Position numbers and translations under genes: made by a program. Below are positions 26,730-40,794 of a DNA stretch of 45,570 nucleotides, piece after piece. This stretch comes from an uncultured Bacteroidota bacterium (GTDB lineage: Bacteria; Bacteroidota; Bacteroidia; Flavobacteriales_D; Sanyastnellaceae), in NCBI GenBank assembly GCA_903932685.1, contig CAIZGX010000054.1:1-45570 (forward strand), read 5' to 3'. Below the pieces are notes generated by a model that was not told the origin of the DNA, searched no databases, and saw only the letters and a program-made list of their open reading frames with translations. Each line of letters begins with the position of its first letter. The first letter of the stretch is position 1.

Positions 26730-28757
26730 TTATGCTCCTTCTTCGCCGTCCATTTTCTCTTTCAATGCAGCCAATGCACCTAAGTCACCAAGAGTTGATT
26801 TCTCAACTTGAGAGTTAACTTGCTTCACAGCTGAATTGTTATCTTCTTTCTTAGCACCTGATCCTGAACCAGCACCTGCGCGCTTAGGCTTAGCATCTGA
26901 AGATGGAGTAGAAGTGATTTCTTCTGGCTTCCAAGTTTGTGTGTGAGACACAGCAATCTTACGTTGGTTCTTGTTGAACTCAAGAACAATGAAGTCAAGG
27001 GTTTCTTCCACTTTCGCAGTAGCACCGTCTTCTTTCTTCATGTTTTTGTTCAAGCAGAATCCTTCTAAACCGTAAGGAAGAGCAACAACACAATGGTTAC
27101 CTTCTTTCTTCACGATAGTACCTTGGTGCTTGGTTCCTTCAACGAAAACAGTTTCGAACACATCCCATGGATTTTCTTCCACTTGTTTGTGTCCTAAGCT
27201 GATCTTACGTCCTTCACGATCCAATTCCAATACAACTACAGCTAGATCATCTCCGATAGCGCAGAACTCACTTGGATGCTTGATCTTCTTAGACCAAGAA
27301 AGGTCAGAGATGTGAACAAGGCCATCGATTCCGTCTGCTAATTCGCAGAAGATACCGAATGTAGTGAATGCACGAACTTTCGCAGTGTGCTTGGCTCCAA
27401 CAGGGAAACGAGACTCAATTCCGTCCCATGGATCAGAAGTCAATTGCTTCAATCCAAGACTTAATTTACGCTCGTCTTTTTCCATGCTAAGGATTACAGC
27501 TTCAACTTCCTGTCCTACTTTCAAGAAGTCTTGAGCAGAACGTAAGTGTGAACTCCAAGACATTTCAGAAACGTGAATCAATCCTTCTACACCAGGAGCA
27601 ATCTCAACGAATGCACCGTAGTCAGCAAGAACAACCACTTTTCCTGTAATCTTTTGTCCAACTTCCAAAGTATCTTGAATAGCATCCCATGGGTGAGCAG
27701 ACAATTGTTTCAAACCAAGAGCAATTCTCTTCTTGTCATCATCGAAGTCAAGAATAACAACGTTGATCTTAGTATCCAATTGAACAATCTCTTCAGGATG
27801 AACAATACGTCCCCAAGAAAGGTCAGTAATGTGAATCAATCCATCTACGCCGCCAAGGTCAACGAATACACCGTAGCTTGTGATGTTTTTAACCACACCT
27901 TCCAATACTTGTCCTTTTTCAAGGCCAGACATGATTTGCTTCTTCTGTTCTTCCAACTCAGCTTCGATAAGCGCTTTGTGAGAAACAACAACGTTTTTGA
28001 ATTCGTTGTTAATCTTAACAACTTTCAATTCCATGATTTTTCCAACGTAAACGTCGTAATCACGAATTGGCTTAACGTCGATTTGAGAACCAGGTAAGAA
28101 CGCTTCGATACCGAATACGTCAACGATAAGTCCGCCTTTCGTGCGACACTTAACTTCACCTTTAATGATTTCGCCAGACTCAAGAGCTGCGTTAACATTA
28201 CCCCAAGCGCTGAACAAACGAGCAGTCTTGTGAGAAACGATTAACTGTCCGTTTTTGTCTTCTTGTAATTCAACATAAACAGTAACGCGGTCACCCGCTT
28301 TAAGATCTGGGTTGTAACGGAATTCAGTTACTGCAACCACACCTTCAGACTTGTATCCGATGTTGATTACAACTTCTTTCTTTCCAACAGAAACAACGGT
28401 TCCTTCAATAACTGTTTTTTCAGCAATTGTAGACAACGTGTTTTCGTATAATGAATCGTAACGATCACGCTCCGAATCACTGTAACCTCCTGCAGATTCG
28501 TAAGCTTCCCAACTGAATTCGCCATTTTCATTCATGAAAGCAGCGTCGTCAGCAGTGCTGTACAACTCTAAGGGTTCTTCTGCAGAAACTTCTTCTTCTA
28601 CCGGAGCAGAATCTTCTTCTACCGGAGCAGAAACTTCTTCTGCCGGAGCAGAAACTTCTTCTACAGATTCAGAAGCCGTAGCTTCAGTGTTTTCAGTTCC
28701 TTCGTTGGTTGGAACAATGTTTTCAGCTTCTTCAGCTGGATTTAATTCTTCTGCCAT
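26730..28757 (-). CDS. rpsA: 30S ribosomal protein S1
   Basis: A 675-residue S1 with an acidic N-terminal extension (about residues 1-110) and six S1/OB repeats. The repeats are recognisable by recurring segments such as GVFVDLGGVDGLIHITDLSWGR, GAFVEIAPGVEGLIHVSEMSW and GIFCELADGIDGLVHISDLSW, and by the DxxxKRIALGLKQL-type linkers. S1 brings mRNA to the 30S subunit. In Bacteroidota the anti-SD interaction is rarely used, so S1-mediated initiation is probably important. The extension carries a tandem 7-residue repeat. The C-terminal 60 residues are low-complexity and charged. Confidence 0.96.
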   Translation of the reverse strand: MAEELNPAEEAENIVPTNEGTENTEATASESVEEVSAPAEEVSAPVEEDSAPVEEEVSAEEPLELYSTADDAAFMNENGEFSWEAYESAGGYSDSERDRYDSLYENTLSTIAEKTVIEGTVVSVGKKEVVINIGYKSEGVVAVTEFRYNPDLKAGDRVTVYVELQEDKNGQLIVSHKTARLFSAWGNVNAALESGEIIKGEVKCRTKGGLIVDVFGIEAFLPGSQIDVKPIRDYDVYVGKIMELKVVKINNEFKNVVVSHKALIEAELEEQKKQIMSGLEKGQVLEGVVKNITSYGVFVDLGGVDGLIHITDLSWGRIVHPEEIVQLDTKINVVILDFDDDKKRIALGLKQLSAHPWDAIQDTLEVGQKITGKVVVLADYGAFVEIAPGVEGLIHVSEMSWSSHLRSAQDFLKVGQEVEAVILSMEKDERKLSLGLKQLTSDPWDGIESRFPVGAKHTAKVRAFTTFGIFCELADGIDGLVHISDLSWSKKIKHPSEFCAIGDDLAVVVLELDREGRKISLGHKQVEENPWDVFETVFVEGTKHQGTIVKKEGNHCVVALPYGLEGFCLNKNMKKEDGATAKVEETLDFIVLEFNKNQRKIAVSHTQTWKPEEITSTPSSDAKPKRAGAGSGSGAKKEDNNSAVKQVNSQVEKSTLGDLGALAALKEKMDGEEGA
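28582..28668 (-). repeat. 21-bp tandem repeat inside the rpsA N-terminus
   Basis: Consecutive units start at 28582 (24 nt), 28606 (21 nt), 28627 (21 nt) and 28648 (partial), each beginning GCAGAA and most ending CCGGA. They encode an acidic heptad of the form EEVSAPV. The repeat is in frame and could change copy number without disrupting the protein. Confidence 0.85.
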
Positions 28758-31283: not shown

Positions 31284-31333
31284 GTCGCAGACATTCGCGA
31301 AGCATTCGTGCAAAGCACATTCGTCCGCAGGAC
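31284..31333. repeat. Mini-hairpin array A (ATTC spacers)
   Basis: Four perfect hairpins separated by exactly 4 nt, always ATTC: GTC-gca-GAC (31284-31292), GC-gaa-GC (31297-31303), GTGC-aaa-GCAC (31308-31318), GTCC-gca-GGAC (31323-31333). Every hairpin starts with G and ends with C. The gap 31231-31641 has no gene; it holds this array, the GC-rich element at 31334-31430, a featureless purine/pyrimidine stretch, and array B. Confidence 0.85.
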
Positions 31334-31430
31334 TTTTTGGGCGTGCCCCTTCGGGTCGGGCTATCCGTTCCAAGTCCTCGCGGTTTCCAACCGCTCCGGG
31401 CTTTCCACTTCTATCCCTCACGCAACTCCA
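31334..31430. repeat. GC-rich structured intergenic element
   Basis: A stretch clearly richer in G and C than its surroundings, with small hairpins: GGGC-gt-GCCC (31339-31348), overlapping CCC-ttc-GGG (31347-31355), and GCGGTT-tcc-AACCGC (31380-31394). It ends in a TCCCTCACGCAA-type sequence. I recall similar dispersed elements, with a fixed frame and a variable central hairpin, in other Bacteroidota genomes, but could not check this. No protein or known RNA family was recognised. Confidence 0.5.
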
Positions 31431-31499
31431 CTCTTTCTGTTTGTCTTTCTGATTCTCATTCTAGTAAAAATAAGGAGAGAGTAGGAGAGAAGGAGAAGT

Positions 31500-31605
31500 T
31501 CCCTTCGGGATATATCCACTCTGTGGATCAGTCCGCTAGCGGATACATCCCTTCGGGATTGGTCCTGAAAGGATTTGTCCCTTCGGGATTTGTCCACGAA
31601 GTGGA
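31500..31605. repeat. Mini-hairpin array B (seven TCC...GGA hairpins)
   Basis: Seven perfect hairpins with spacers of exactly 4 nt beginning with T: TCCC-ttc-GGGA (31500), TCCAC-tct-GTGGA (31515), TCCGC-ta-GCGGA (31532), TCCC-ttc-GGGA (31548), TCCT-gaa-AGGA (31563), TCCC-ttc-GGGA (31578), TCCAC-gaa-GTGGA (31593-31605). The fourth pair takes all four Watson-Crick forms. The array ends 36 nt past the stop codon of the minus-strand gene at 31642. No T-tract follows the hairpins. Confidence 0.9.
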
Positions 31606-31641
31606 AAAACCCTTAACTCGTCCCTGTCTTTTTGTGTTTTT

Positions 31642-32031
31642 TTAAGATACCGATATGTGTAAATCACAAACTATTTTCGGTCTTATTTTAAAAAATATTT
31701 TCCATAAATACTTTGAGTTTTCTTGAAGTAAAATTGGAATTGAAAACTCATTGTGTTTCAGAATACCTTCTTTCGGTAAATGAATATCAAACGATTCTAT
31801 AAATTCAACCGCTTCATATTTCTCAATTTTCTTTGACGAATCAAGATAGACTGCTTCAACGGTAATCGAGTCGGGTATCACTGCATATGAATGGTCAAAA
31901 CACAAGTTTAGCGTGTTATTTTCGAAATTCATGTTTAACGCACTGAAATGTCGTTCGATTTCAAAATTATTTGAAGCGTTAAATCTTAAAATTTCATCAA
32001 TATCTAAAAATGTTCTTTTGATTGCCTTCAC
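31642..32031 (-). CDS. Hypothetical protein (possibly a 5'-truncated gene)
   Basis: A 129-residue frame with no recognised domain, no signal peptide and no membrane segment. It appears as mixed beta strands (NTLNLCFDHSYAVIPDSITVEAVYL). It can only start at a GTG (32029-32031); no in-frame ATG precedes the upstream stop codon, so it may be a remnant whose 5' end was lost. Array B lies directly 3' of it. Low codon bias and an AT-rich sequence fit an accessory gene. Confidence 0.5.
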   Translation of the reverse strand: MKAIKRTFLDIDEILRFNASNNFEIERHFSALNMNFENNTLNLCFDHSYAVIPDSITVEAVYLDSSKKIEKYEAVEFIESFDIHLPKEGILKHNEFSIPILLQENSKYLWKIFFKIRPKIVCDLHISVS

Positions 32032-32097
32032 ATTTATTAGTGTATTTCAATTAGTTGGGCCAATAGAATCTCTCAGGCTTCCATCTTCATTTTTTTG

Positions 32098-32610
32098 TCA
32101 AGGTTTACAGTCCTGTTGCGTGTCCTTAGCTAAGTAGTCGTGTTTTAATTTGTCGGGAACGTGCTTGTTTATTTGCTCAAATATTTTTTCTATTTGTGGT
32201 TCATAATAATGATGCAATGATATTTTCTGAGTGATTGTATCAACTGTCTTGGAAATAAAATACTCATTTCCGCTTGTCGCCATTATGCAATAGTTAAAAT
32301 AGAAGTCCTTTAAACTGTCAAGTTGTATGCTTTCTATTTGGTAAATTGAATTATCGTCGAGTTTTTTTGAAAACAACAATGTGTCCAATTCTGACCACAT
32401 ACTAGATTCTCGAACTGTTAGAAGACTGTCGGTAAGATTGTATGTCGTTACACCATTAAACATTTGTTCTGCATGATTATATGTGCTGATTGAAAGTGAA
32501 AATTTTGATTTCGACTCTTTAGGTCTTTTAGCTGCATTGTCCTGTCCGAAAGCCAACAGTCCACAGGTCAAAATAAAAATGGTCAACGTATATGTCGTTT
32601 TTGTCATCAT
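32098..32610 (-). CDS. Hypothetical exported protein
   Basis: About 170 residues from the ATG at 32608-32610; the next codon but one (32607) is also ATG. The frame opens further upstream, but this start puts a signal peptide (TYTLTIFILTCGLLAFGQ) at the N-terminus. The mature part is polar with no recognised motif (LSISTYNHAEQMFNGVTTYN, then IYQIESIQLDSLKDF). It ends in Cys-Lys-Pro. The function is unknown. The gap 32668-33019 downstream of the next gene holds array C and no other gene. Confidence 0.6.
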   Translation of the reverse strand: MMTKTTYTLTIFILTCGLLAFGQDNAAKRPKESKSKFSLSISTYNHAEQMFNGVTTYNLTDSLLTVRESSMWSELDTLLFSKKLDDNSIYQIESIQLDSLKDFYFNYCIMATSGNEYFISKTVDTITQKISLHHYYEPQIEKIFEQINKHVPDKLKHDYLAKDTQQDCKP

Positions 32611-32843
32611 AAAATGAGTGCCAATTAGTTCATTCCTGGTACAAACCTTTCCAATACATTCCATCATAGTCTGATTGGCGAAGTTTAATTGCGCTTATTA
32701 AAAGTAATTAATTTCCCCATTCATTCAACGCAAACGTTTTACAATTCTCTCCTTCCCAAAGACCGTTGTAGTCTAATCGCTAGTGTTATAGGGCAATTGG
32801 TAGCATTTGCCAGAATTAGAGTAGGAGCGGTGGGGTTGAAAAA

Positions 32844-32976
32844 TACGTCGAAAGACGTAGAAACGAAGTTCCCTTCGGGATACATCCACAACGTGGATCA
32901 GTCCGCATAGCGGATAAGTCCCTTCGGGATTGGTCCTGAAAGGATTTGTCCCGAAGGGATTTGTCCACGAAGTGGA
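32844..32976. repeat. Mini-hairpin array C (paralogue of array B)
   Basis: Seven hairpins in the same order as array B, with 4-nt spacers: TCCC-ttc-GGGA (32870), TCCAC-aac-GTGGA (32885), TCCGC-ata-GCGGA (32902), TCCC-ttc-GGGA (32919), TCCT-gaa-AGGA (32934), TCCC-gaa-GGGA (32949), TCCAC-gaa-GTGGA (32964-32976). Two more precede them: TACGTC-gaaa-GACGTA (32844-32859) and AAC-gaa-GTT (32862-32870). Stems match array B while three loops differ. It lies 43 nt 3' of the KilA-N gene stop. Confidence 0.9.
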
Positions 32977-33019: not shown

Positions 33020-33430
33020 TTATCTCAGCAAATCCCGAGATTTCAAATTTTGCAATACAGTCATTTGCTGAATAGCCAATTGGTTTAGTTTAACAAGCCT
33101 TTCTTTGTGAGCATATGTCCCGCCATAGCGATCAGATTTTACAGTCAATCCTTTTGCTGCTGTGCGACTTATCCATTGACCAGCGGACATTGTAAATCTG
33201 TTTACGCCGGAATCTTTTTCAATTACACCGAATTCGGGGTAATTAAAATTAACATTATGAATTCTTTCCCATATCGATAAATACTCAATAGTGTTCTTGT
33301 TAGTTATCCATTTGCTAATAAGGCCACTTCCTTCTTTGAATCCCGAAGAAATATCGGTTAGTGAAATAAAATCATTTTCGTTGAATTGAATTATTGAAAT
33401 TTCCGTTGTTTGAACTTTAATTTTTGCCAT
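33020..33430 (-). CDS. KilA-N domain protein, apparently with an internal deletion
   Basis: 136 residues from the ATG at 33428-33430 (the frame reaches a TTG at 33445). Residues about 1-95 are a KilA-N domain, a phage- and virus-associated DNA-binding module: FISLTDISSGF, ISKWITNKNTIEYLSIWE, then SDRYGGTYAHK. Full-length relatives I recall have about 260-280 residues, continuing with an AFEFASWIS-type segment and ending in an ERLxxLNxxAIxQM tail. Here TYAHK is followed at once by ERLVKLNQLAIQQMTVL, as if the middle were removed in frame. Function unknown; mobile-element or defence context is likely. Confidence 0.75.
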   Translation of the reverse strand: MAKIKVQTTEISIIQFNENDFISLTDISSGFKEGSGLISKWITNKNTIEYLSIWERIHNVNFNYPEFGVIEKDSGVNRFTMSAGQWISRTAAKGLTVKSDRYGGTYAHKERLVKLNQLAIQQMTVLQNLKSRDLLR

Positions 33431-33510
33431 TTTTTTTAGCCACAAAGTTGAATTGGCTAGTTGGCATAAACACCAATTTTTATATGCAGTTTATATGCTG
33501 TTTATTCGTC

Positions 33511-33610
33511 AATCCGAAGGATTAATCAACGCAGTTGATTGATTGCTTGCAATTGATCTTCGATGAAGATTGGTCCTACTCCGTAATTCCTAAGTGGTAA
33601 TGGGAACTTA
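33511..33610. repeat. Mini-hairpin array D (AT...AT hairpins, almost no spacer)
   Basis: AATCC-gaa-GGATT (33511-33523) directly abuts AATCAAC-gca-GTTGATT (33524-33540). Then come ATTGC-tt-GCAAT (33542-33553) and ATCTTC-gat-GAAGAT (33556-33570) with 1-2 nt gaps, then TAC-tcc-GTA (33577-33585) plus ATTCC, and TAAGT/ACTTA (33591-33610). The array begins 13 nt 3' of the small frame at 33624-33734. Nothing else is seen in 33431-33623. Confidence 0.85.
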
Positions 33611-34378: not shown

Positions 34379-34667
34379 AACTACGTTATTCCTACTTCGT
34401 AATTGGAAAACCGTTGGTTTTATTCCTACTGCGTAATTCCTATTTCATAATTTGAACGGTGTTATTGGAAGCACTTCATCCGAGCTCGCTCTGCGAGCGG
34501 CATCCGAAATGCCCCCAGTGAAGCTGGGGGATAACGTTCAAGCTCACAAATTGCAACCTTGAAATTGGATGTCGCAAATTGCGACTTCATTCTTGAAACA
34601 GGGCTCTAAAATGGATGGACTGGTGTCTCAAATACTCACTCATCTTCAAGATTAGAAAGTCGAAGAC
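34379..34667. repeat. Mini-hairpin array E (TAC...GTA hairpins, then larger stems)
   Basis: AAC-tac-GTT (34379), TAC-ttc-GTA (34393), AAAACC-gtt-GGTTTT (34407), TAC-tgc-GTA (34427), TAT-ttc-ATA (34441) and AAC-ggt-GTT (34455), separated by ATTCC or ATTGG or a near match. Then GAAG/CTTC (34468-34477), GCTCGC-tct-GCGAGC (34484-34498), CCCCCAG/CTGGGGG (34512-34530), GTCGCA-aat-TGCGAC (34571-34585), ATCT-tca-AGAT (34642-34652) and GTC-gaa-GAC (34659-34667). It ends 14 nt 3' of the L,D-transpeptidase gene and accounts for the gene-free gap 34367-34681. Confidence 0.85.
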
Positions 34668-35896: not shown

Positions 35897-36108
35897 AACT
35901 ACGTTATTCCTACTTCGTAATTGGAAATCCTTCGGATTTATTCCTACTTCGTAATTCCTATTTCATAATTTGAAAGGTGTTATTAGAAAAACAGTCGAAG
36001 ACATTCGCGAAGCATTCGCCCAGCGGGCATTCGTCTGAAAGACATTCTTCCCTTCTCTTACCTTTTCTTCCCCTCTCTTACCTTTAGATAGGCATTCGTA
36101 TGAAGTAC
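35897..36108. repeat. Mini-hairpin array F (TAC...GTA block plus ATTC block)
   Basis: First block, ATTCC/ATTGG spacers: AAC-tac-GTT (35897), TAC-ttc-GTA (35911), AAATCC-ttc-GGATTT (35925), TAC-ttc-GTA (35945), TAT-ttc-ATA (35959). Second block, ATTC spacers: GTC-gaa-GAC (35994), GC-gaa-GC (36007), GCCC-agc-GGGC (36018), GTCT-gaa-AGAC (36033), and GTAT-gaa-GTAC with one T-G pair (36098-36108). A pyrimidine direct repeat (36046-36085) interrupts the second block. The first block is nearly identical to the start of array E. The array ends 12 nt 3' of the serine hydrolase gene. Confidence 0.88.
36046..36085. repeat. 20-nt pyrimidine-rich direct repeat
   Basis: Positions 36046-36065 and 36066-36085 are tandem copies with one mismatch, composed almost only of C and T and each ending TTACCTTT. 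The repeat splits array F between its fourth and fifth ATTC-type hairpins. Confidence 0.75.
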
Positions 36109-38655: not shown

Positions 38656-40794
38656 TTAGTTTTGTTCTTCTGGCTTTGGAAGCAAAGCTTTTCTAGAAAG
38701 CTTCAATTTACCGGTCTTAGGATCTTTTCCTAAAACTTTAAATTTAACCAAATCGCCAACTTTCAATACCTCGTTAACATCGTCTACACGTCTCCATTCT
38801 AATTCACTGATGTGAATAAGGCCATCTTGACCTGGAATAATTTCAACGAATGCTCCGAACGGTTGAATGGTTTTAACTGGACCTTCATACGTAGCTCCAA
38901 TTTCAACTTGTGGAGGCCAAACAATAGACTTCACACGATTCACAGCAGCATCAAGGCTTGTCTTGTCCGCAGACGCAATTTCTACAAATCCTTTGTTGTC
39001 GCGCTCTTCGATAGAGATTGTTGCGCCAGTTGTTTTCTGAATTTCTTGAATTACTTTTCCTCCAGGACCAATTACTTTTCCGATTTCTTCGGTTGGAATT
39101 TCGAAGCTAATGATACGTGGTGCGTGAGGTTTGTAATCTTCGCGTGGTTCAGAAATGGTTTTCATCATTTCACCCAAGATGTGCAAACGACCTTGCTTGG
39201 CTTGATCCAAAGCGTCGGTTAACAATTGCATTGAAAGACCCTTGATCTTAATGTCCATTTGGCAAGCTGTAATTCCTTTCGAAGTTCCAGTTACTTTAAA
39301 GTCCATATCGCCCAAGTGATCCTCGTCTCCTAGGATATCTGATAAGATTGAATATTTTCCGTTTTCATCTGTGATCAATCCCATTGCAATTCCAGATACT
39401 GGAGAAGTAATAGGAACACCACCGTCCATTAACGCAAGTGTACCTGCGCAAACAGTAGCCATAGATGAAGACCCGTTCGACTCTAAAATGTCAGACACAA
39501 TTCGCATCGTGTAAGGACATTTTTCAGTTTCTGGAAGAACAGGCTTCAATGCACGAAGTGCAAGGTTACCGTGTCCAATTTCACGACGACCCGTTGAACG
39601 AATCGGACGTGCTTCACCTGTGCTGAATGGTGGGAAGTTGTAGTGCAACAAAAACTTATCGTTACGTGCATTTACAACACCGTCAACGAATTGCTCGTCG
39701 AGTTTAGTTCCCAAAGTAAGCGTGGTCAAAGATTGTGTTTCTCCACGAGTGAAGACACTTGATCCGTGAGCACCTGGCAAATAATCTACTTCACACCAGA
39801 TTGGACGAATGGTACGAGTATCGCGGCCATCCAAACGAATACCATCGTCTAGAATCATGCGACGCATAGCGTCTTTCAAACAATCGTGGGTATATTTCTT
39901 CAACAAGAAAGCATTTGCAGATTTCTCTTCCGCAGTGAATTGAGCGAAAAACTCTTCTTCAATTTGGTGAAACGCTGCGCTTCTTTCTTTCTTTCCGGAT
40001 GGAGTCTTTACCGCAACATAGAACTTGTTGTAACACTCGTCCCATACTTTCTTCTTCAACTCTTCGTCTTTTGGTTCGTGGTTGTATGAACGCTTTACAG
40101 TCGCTTTTTCAACCTTCGATGCCAATTCCAATTGAGCTTTTACTTGTGCTTGAATAGCAGTGTGAGCAATAGCAATGGCTTCAACCATAACTTCCTCAGA
40201 CACTTCTTTCATTTCACCTTCAACCATTACAATACTGTCTGCACTTCCTGCAATCATCATATCTAAATCGGCAAGTGCCAATTGAGAGCGAGTAGGGTTA
40301 ACAACGAATTCACCGTTGATGCGTGCAACACGAACTTCTGAAATTGGTCCGTTGAATGGAATATCTGAAACTGCAATTGCAGCAGATGCTGCAAGACCAG
40401 CTAAACTATCAGGCATGTGCTCTGTATCTGCAGAAATCAAAGACACCACAACTTGTGTATCACTGTGGAAATCTTCAGGGAACATAGGGCGCAAAGCGCG
40501 GTCGATCAAGCGAGAAACTAAAATCTCGTCGTCGTATGGACGTGCTTCACGTTTGAAATAACCACCCGGGAAACGACCCACAGCGGCATATTTTTCGCGG
40601 TACTCTACCGTTAGAGGAAGGAAGTCTAACCCTTCTTTTGCTTCTTCGTTGGCTACAACGGTTGCAAGGAGCATCGTATCTCCTTGACGAACGACTACAG
40701 AGCCATGTGCTTGCTTCGCTAACTTACCAGTTTCAATGGTAATTGGAGCAGAAGAACCCATGTCAATGGTCGTTGTGATTGCTTCGATTTTCAT
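38656..40794 (-). CDS. pnp: Polyribonucleotide nucleotidyltransferase (PNPase)
   Basis: A 712-residue 3'-to-5' phosphorolytic exoribonuclease. It has two RNase PH-like domains (about residues 5-230 and 320-545; [26 protein letters not shown] in the first region is split over conserved segments). A KH domain follows near 560 ([17 protein letters not shown]). A C-terminal S1 domain is near 630 ([21 protein letters not shown]). It follows rpsO, as in most bacteria. A terminator hairpin lies in the 85-base gap, so pnp is transcribed by read-through, its own promoter, or both. Confidence 0.97.

Follow-up and report, generated by a model that had tools for sequence, protein, structure and literature searches.

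We read arrays B and C, two chains of seven short hairpins each, as copies of an interspersed, genus-specific intergenic repeat whose folded hairpins would be under selection, whose copies would serve as joints for recombination and which may confer a benefit at transcript ends; we give this reading an even chance of being right. Both arrays lie in a 45,570-nt stretch of DNA (the window), which is contig C54 of genome G000 (2.37 Mb, 84 contigs). Comparison of copies shows conserved stems beside drifting loops and inner spacer bases, and the number of units at the same gene junction varies between species. The similar order of units in B and C is plain common descent.

Arrays B and C and their family

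Array B is composed of the hairpins TCCCTTCGGGA, TCCACTCTGTGGA, TCCGCTAGCGGA, TCCCTTCGGGA, TCCTGAAAGGA, TCCCTTCGGGA and TCCACGAAGTGGA, separated in order by the spacers tata, tcag, taca, ttgg, tttg and tttg (Table 1). The spacers of array C are taca, tcag, taag, ttgg, tttg and tttg, so that four of six are identical and C has taca and taag where B has tata and taca. Loops differ at three places (TCT/AAC, TA/ATA and TTC/GAA). The initial annotation, made from the letters alone, had described 14 hairpins with all stems intact, a fourth stem pair running C-G, A-T, G-C, C-G, T-A, C-G, A-T in both arrays, the shared spacers tcag, ttgg, tttg and tttg, and differences in these three loops, and we found the arrays to be so. 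An extra fifth pair occurs in units with A or G at pair 4 (TCCAC/GTGGA, TCCGC/GCGGA), which makes the stem length 4 or 5 bp. A generic hairpin-chain detector scored C at 17.1 (chain 32844-32976) and B at 13.6, and two dinucleotide shuffles of the window yielded zero chains scoring at least 6, which excludes a chance origin of the two arrays. RNA folds of B and C had z-scores of -5.4 to -8.2 on either strand.

Table 1. Positions of arrays B and C and of adjoining features in the window
Feature	Position	Strand	Description
Array B	31500..31605	+	Seven hairpins with 4-nt spacers; the strand listed carries T..G or T..A spacers
DNA between B and C	31606..32869	-	Minus-strand ORFs 31642-32031 and 32098-32667
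Leader	32640..32843	+	About 200 nt, left of C
Hairpin TACGTC-GAAA-GACGTA	32844..32859	+	Left of array C
Array C	32870..32976	+	Seven unit types, order as in B; 91% identity to B
KilA-N domain ORF	33020..33445	-	Right of C

The longer hairpin beside C is exact in nine of 19 aligned copies, C included, and altered in L101 and L115; the left flank of B differs. The leader is alignable by eye, in some copies only in part, in nine of the 19 (C, L096, L097, L098, L101, the first array of L113, the second array of L114, L115 and L116), and its far end approaches the start of ORF 32098-32667. Neither minus-strand ORF between B and C had a Pfam match.

Parsing 43 places besides the window gave a family of 48 arrays with 319 hairpins and 271 spacers in eight of nine genomes of one freshwater Flavobacteriales genus, after seven flanking pseudo-units (L012, L088, L095, L103, L108, L111, L118) were dropped from 326. 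The search for these arrays relied either on an exact pattern (A or G unit, then TCC) or on similarity to B; it therefore partly selected the A and G units for intactness, and did so less for C and T units. Copies and arrays share descent, and counts made over pairs do not amount to independent trials. One unit of L107, bearing a deletion, was misread by the parser, and the single matches at L083 and L100 held no array. By gene calls that are plain ORFs, the arrays are intergenic, some extending into gene ends. A covariance model, which itself favours stems, added two arrays, L203 with 18 consecutive intact units followed by a damaged one, and L204 with six intact. The 18 units of L203 (1767-2032) are of the C and T types only and partly follow a 30-bp higher-order period.

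The pattern TCCRCNNNGYGGANNNNTCC occurred in 4 to 50 copies (both strands summed) in eight of the nine genus genomes and was absent from the ninth, G007, where there was one control match. Outside the genus, 17 of 51 other relatives had one or two copies, and the reversed control matched eight genomes there as well. Under strict filters, a covariance model of the first four hairpins matched 8 of 114 family genomes, all from one genus of 21, and no copy was found in 105 other family genomes. A scan of named genomes returned 22 stretches, 20 of them in MAGs filed as Flavobacteriales or Chryseobacterium that correspond to genus members analysed here. Of the other two, one lies in a MAG called Cytophagales (L069), with an array at the same tRNA-Asn junction as three genus arrays, and one in a Bacillota MAG (L053, 5294-5323), where three consecutive TCC hairpins (CTCC..GGAG) resemble those of the genus and are spaced differently. 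No plasmid or phage record matched C at E 0.001, and no IMG/VR contig contained the exact A-G pattern. Titles and abstract openings in the literature, with subscription papers outside this scope, held no description of such arrays in Flavobacteriales. In 197 kb of the genus that were not chosen around arrays, the generic detector found no overall excess of chains (four scoring at least 6 vs 4.0 in shuffles; one vs 0 scoring at least 12). In 345 kb of other genera it found nine chains scoring at least 6 vs 2.0 in shuffles, and two vs 0 scoring at least 12, both in one locus with CTAG-rich repeats.

Stem constraint and the strand mark

Among 19 copies that start C,A,G,C, variation touches 7 of the 36 stem columns and the mean pairwise difference there is 0.020, a figure raised by the inclusion of L093, which belongs to another junction. 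All 12 loop columns vary (pairwise difference 0.355), and the spacers differ by 0.267 at inner and 0.189 at outer bases. We made the same comparison with type-matched units at eight junctions, namely the B junction and seven that different species have in common, of which one also supplied two arrays from a single genome. Here 35 of 2450 stem bases differ (1.4%) against 161 of 822 loop bases (19.6%), and the spacers differ at 63 of 304 inner bases and 27 of 304 outer ones. The proposal that stems are held and loops are free thus extends beyond B and C, both between copies and at fixed sites. Uncompensated stem changes exist and are rare, far from the parity with loop changes that the initial annotation had named as fatal to its view.

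The further proposal of selection on structure fared less evenly: stems are constrained and loops are not, but the B/C family displays no covariation and the letters themselves are kept. In the covariation check that had been suggested, 0 of 21 stem pairs changed on both sides among 14 distinct copies, and shuffling altered nothing; 16 of the 21 aligned pairs never vary, which leaves almost nothing to count. Stems are conserved as letters, with rare, uncompensated changes, and pairing as such becomes visible only across unit types and in the sister families described below.

Each unit is built of a stem TCC-N or TCC-N-C, a triloop and the partner arm, giving hairpins of 11-13 nt in chains of 2-18. 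Pair 4 is C-G in 126 of the 319 units, A-T in 86, G-C in 64, T-A in 35 and something else in eight. The spacer measures 4 nt in 271 of 271 cases, though the parser permitted 3 to 6, and T..G and C..A spacers were never mixed within one of the 48 arrays. With three unorientable arrays left out of the strand counts (two of which hold G units with loops TAT and TTT), the spacers of the 45 oriented arrays comprise 176 T..G, 79 T..A, 10 other and no C..A, in 22 types on the oriented strand. The bases flanking 220 internal hairpins are G/T at 149, A/T at 67, A/C at three and T/T at one, and L203 and L204 also follow the T..R rule. RNA energy parameters favour the marked strand in 38 of 43 arrays (mean 6.2 kcal/mol) and DNA parameters in 27 of 43 (mean 0.5 kcal/mol), a test that is partly circular since orientation is itself defined by the spacers. 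C..G spacers, which would give a G-C closing pair and would be expected to be common if stability were selected, make up only 3 of 265, so the T..R rule may be a rule of sequence. Non-standard pairs on the marked strand of oriented arrays (28 among 1424 counted: 12 G.U, 7 A.C and 9 other) lean only slightly toward G.U.

Two further patterns were considered and set aside. Avoidance of same-type neighbours seemed strong in 45 arrays (CC 2 vs 41.0 expected; AA 1 vs 19.5) and is not claimed, given two later arrays with many C-C neighbours. An alternative register that pairs adjacent loops was rejected, as reverse-complementary neighbours numbered 39 of 251 against a shuffled mean of 36.3.

The mark on one strand and the 4-nt spacer at each hairpin foot recall GTAG-tagged REP sequences as far as these are described in the portions of PMC3733652 consulted. 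The likeness to REP/RAYT systems (GTAG- and CGTC-tagged) covers multicopy short palindromes with a 4-nt foot tag, the coexistence of several families in a genome and Y1-type transposases in part of the genomes. A palindromic unit in many intergenic copies, by which REPs are recognised, is present here in 48 arrays in eight genomes. The same portions of that source describe REPs as occurring singly, as dimers with spacers mostly of 20-100 bp, and in groups; the arrays here differ in being 11-13-nt hairpins in chains of 2-18 with a constant 4-nt spacer, four stem types and a recurrent order. The tags GTAG and CGTC are absent among the 22 spacer types on the oriented strand, and a Y1 match is missing in five of the nine genus genomes. 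Because the tag fails and the transposase occurs in part of the genomes, four of nine, we file the arrays not as members of REP but as a variant of palindromic extragenic repeats, REP-like and apparently of new architecture.

A selfish REP-like element acting as single-stranded DNA, in which a Y1 (HUH) transposase reads the hairpins and their 4-nt feet so that only copies that fold can spread, would account for this strand mark, for copies dispersed with different flanks and for the Y1 transposase in four genomes. It sits poorly with G003, which is 96% complete and has 24 model matches and no Y1 match, and with G002 and G005, which have arrays without Y1, though they are less complete. The Y1 match was not found in G002, G003, G005 or G008, all with arrays, and the correlation between the two is weak. 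The foot is variable, with its 22 spacer types, and stems are conserved at fixed orthologous junctions too and not just in moving copies. We consider such an element unlikely.

Other chained palindromes offer partial likenesses. The organelle repeats of Volvox carteri are chained, short, intergenic palindromes with 3-5-nt loops, and their plastid motif TCCCCTTTAGGGA is close to the units here. They reside in organelle DNA, average 50 nt and are inserted into each other, and the parts of PMC2670323 consulted describe no fixed 4-nt spacer. Against Rfam, with E up to 5, mir-618 alone (20.5 bits, cut-off 96) overlapped the first 17 nt of B, and nothing fell on C; no match reached the gathering score in six array-bearing loci. 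A sub-cut-off match to Flavo-1 RNA (RF01705) lies beside B, but at the curated cut-off no Rfam family is matched by the arrays.

Sister chains and other possible origins of the hairpins

Hairpin chains with other spacers recur in the genus. Of 508 odd-length segments flanked by GAAT spacers, 72 form perfect triloop hairpins, against a shuffled mean of 6.7 (maximum 15); they comprise 41 distinct hairpins, and the 66 of type G..C show 15 different 5' arms. Between GAGG spacers the count is 12 of 32 segments (0.4 shuffled) and between ATGA spacers 19 of 151 (1.5 shuffled), all three counts coming from loci largely picked around arrays. When 197 kb of the genus picked otherwise were counted, the excess recurred for GAAT (10 of 182; shuffled mean 2.2, maximum 7) and GAGG (3 of 8; mean 0.06, maximum 1) and was not clear for ATGA (3 of 52; mean 0.8, maximum 4). 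In 476 kb of other genera and families the counts were at the shuffled level (GAAT 2 of 181, GAGG 1 of 88, ATGA 0 of 158), and G007 had no hairpins in any of the three. Upstream of rplU, a TCC array is present in G000 and G005 and another hairpin chain in G001, G003, G004 and G006, with the end of that chain visible in the short G008 locus; G007 has no hairpin chain there, and G002 gave no rplU.

Further chains were seen within the window and beyond it. Mini-hairpins with fixed ATTC spacers (GCGAAGC, GTGCAAAGCAC, GTCCGCAGGAC and others), of a kind that recurs in the genus, occupy 31284-31336 and 35994-36046 of the window. Four hairpins of another type, with AT-ended stems and 0-2-nt linkers, lie at 33511-33570, with two relatives of four and five hairpins in a row in L174 (4562-4706). 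A 92-nt direct repeat of 92% identity (34379-34470 and 35897-35988) includes 3-bp hairpins such as TAC-TTC-GTA. In another genus of the family, tandem ACTAGTCACTAGT-type hairpins mark both ends of the contig L155 (50-307 and 19525-19746).

Two facts point to hairpins as such being the feature kept: pair 4 takes all four Watson-Crick types, and sister chains exist with other spacers. They could be taken to define a new class of strand-marked hairpin-chain RNA, with an alphabet of stem types and 4-nt U..R linkers that set the geometry, in which the chain and not its sequence would be kept; this we think rather improbable. The corollary that sister families (with linkers GAAT, GAGG, ATGA and of TG/CA type) even replace one another before rplU seems to us doubtful to the same degree.

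Perfect stems with drifting loops could also arise by mutational upkeep, in which template switching during replication re-copies one arm from the other and no selection is needed; such switching is discussed as a mechanism in PMC8794818 and PMC8604942, each consulted in part. This predicts intact stems and free loops, and the TTC/GAA difference between B and C is an exact loop inversion. Overall, a loop and its inverse both occur for A units (30 GAA, 8 TTC), C units (54 TTC, 7 GAA) and T units (16 TTC, 15 GAA), so inversions at large are not excluded. Between type-matched units at orthologous junctions, on the other hand, no exact inversion was seen among 101 loop differences and no double change among 35 differing stem pairs; these comparisons are pairwise rather than independent events, and matching units by the fourth base leaves pair 4 unable to score as double. 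The commonest G-unit loops, AAA, ATA, GAA and AGA, were counted 49 times in oriented arrays without a single inverse, and arm-copying alone fails to predict the conservation of stem sequence. The alternative offered in the initial annotation, copying that builds perfect hairpins, thus lacks, in the type-matched comparisons, both the inversions and the double stem changes that it predicts, and we judge upkeep of this kind distinctly improbable. As loop inversions are absent from these comparisons and stem letters are conserved, purifying constraint is the favoured reading over a hairpin-building copy process.

The hairpins might instead be a by-product of inverted half-sites bound by a protein that recognises the sequence GGA-TNNR-TCC. 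Such a site would account for stem letters that are kept without covarying and for outer spacer bases that hardly vary. The free choice among Watson-Crick types at pair 4 (all but eight of the 319 units), and sister arrays with other spacers that hold 15 different 5' arms in perfect hairpins and so make the hairpin the shared feature, tell against it, and we regard binding sites as quite improbable.

Gene junctions, unit number and possible function

The 200 nt left of B are 96% identical to the left flank of an array in G001 (L084), and the right side of B is at the shuffled level; the right side of C is 82% identical to that of the same G001 array, and the left side of C is at the shuffled level. 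The 1.26 kb between B and C is therefore missing there exactly between arrays: the intervening DNA was not found in G001, where the left flank of B and the right flank of C meet at one array. Either G000 may have gained it or G001 may have lost it. In G005 (L107), the left flank is 75% identical to that of B and the right side is different again. At a second site, in G001, G002 and G006, left flanks are 88-96% identical and right flanks 62-65%, against 59-61% in shuffles. The arrays themselves are 41-93% identical in these flank comparisons, and copies are dispersed, with differing flanks. At two sites, then, the neighbouring gene changes exactly at the array while the gene on the other side is unchanged.

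KilA-N relatives adjoin arrays in G001 and G002 too, with other left neighbours. The KilA-N frame right of C is short, as in G004:C29; in six relatives from the genus the frame is open over 273-291 aa. Upstream of eight of the ten KilA-N genes found in the genus (L185, L186, L187, L188, L189, L190, L192, L193) stands a box like AATAAAC..GCATATAAA..GTGTTTATGC, preceded by hairpin chains of various types. Directly left of B, on the minus strand at 31350-31431, lies the Flavo-1 RNA-like stretch (34.2 bits, cut-off 42, E 0.00026), and this DNA is common to G001. Elsewhere in the window, a tRNA-Pyl called by ARAGORN on the plus strand at 38656-38742, inside the end of a 712-aa minus-strand ORF, is probably a false call, and ORF 26730-28757 contains a 21-bp tandem repeat (28582-28674).

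Integron-like cassette sites, at which a tyrosine recombinase inserts genes, would also fit the change of neighbouring genes from species to species exactly at the arrays of two sites, and the rows of small minus-strand ORFs with hairpin chains between them. We hold this reading very improbable: an integron integrase scored above the TIGR02249 cut-off in none of the nine genomes, on which count the arrays are not an integron cassette array, weaker tyrosine-recombinase matches occurred in nine of nine genomes but likewise in 14 of 14 controls, and the shared array itself supplies homology for ordinary recombination.

Unit number varies at fixed junctions. After a gene that resembles enoyl-CoA hydratase (named from its sequence), seven of nine genomes have 2 to 8 units, G001 has a decayed array (a pair) and G007 has none: there TTA, apparently the facing gene's stop read in reverse, comes immediately after the stop codon. 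Since the array is decayed in G001 and absent in G007, it is dispensable there. G004 (L204) has six units at the junction where L203 has 18. Within arrays, 87 of 225 pairs of same-type units had identical loops, whereas shuffling gave a mean of 48.8 (0 of 1000 shuffles as high), an excess that block duplication predicts. At the hydratase-like junction, the convergent gene of G006 ends inside the array, and by ORF calls the same is seen in six other genomes. At L112 (2306-2431) and like loci the convergent gene's last residues and stop come from the array, which makes the C-terminus species-variable.

The arrays are not clearly closer to stop codons than chance. With crude gene calls, 28 of 50 arrays lie within 80 nt of a stop codon (46% for random windows), and a facing stop is lacking altogether for 18 of the 50 (15% for random windows); within 10 nt of a stop the count is 8 of about 21 manually grouped sites vs 0.13-0.21. 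Orientation relative to genes varies, running along the upstream gene at several junctions and against it at B, C, L203 and L204. A function as terminators or mRNA ends would fit the hairpin clusters that Gupta and Pal 2021 (PMC8355165, consulted in part) propose as intrinsic terminators, in which short hairpins less than 15 nt apart follow the stop codon and no U-tract is needed. In that source the clusters are predicted gene by gene, whereas here a dispersed repeat family is at hand whose stop proximity is not clearly above chance.

In the reading that we prefer, of a genus-specific repeat with selected hairpins, purifying selection on a folded single strand would keep the hairpins. For that folded strand we think RNA, read off the T..G strand, a likelier candidate than DNA, because RNA parameters separate the two strands better, in the partly circular test above. 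Unit number would change through duplication of hairpin blocks, and homologous recombination between copies would move or remove the genes between them. The benefit is the least certain step: clustered RNA hairpins at transcript ends may block read-through or 3' decay, and many copies may be passengers. Counting against this reading are the lack of covariation in the aligned family, the rarity of C..G spacers, the merely slight lean toward G.U, the inconstant orientation to genes, a stop proximity not clearly beyond chance and the dispensable array after the hydratase-like gene.

If the hairpins are selected, the genus would offer a natural experiment on structure, with many arrays sharing gene junctions across related species and the loops as an internal control. 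If they are not, the arrays would parallel, in a bacterium, the palindromic repeats found in algal organelles. Either way, at some arrays the adjoining genes vary from species to species, which bears on how accessory genes move in these small genomes.
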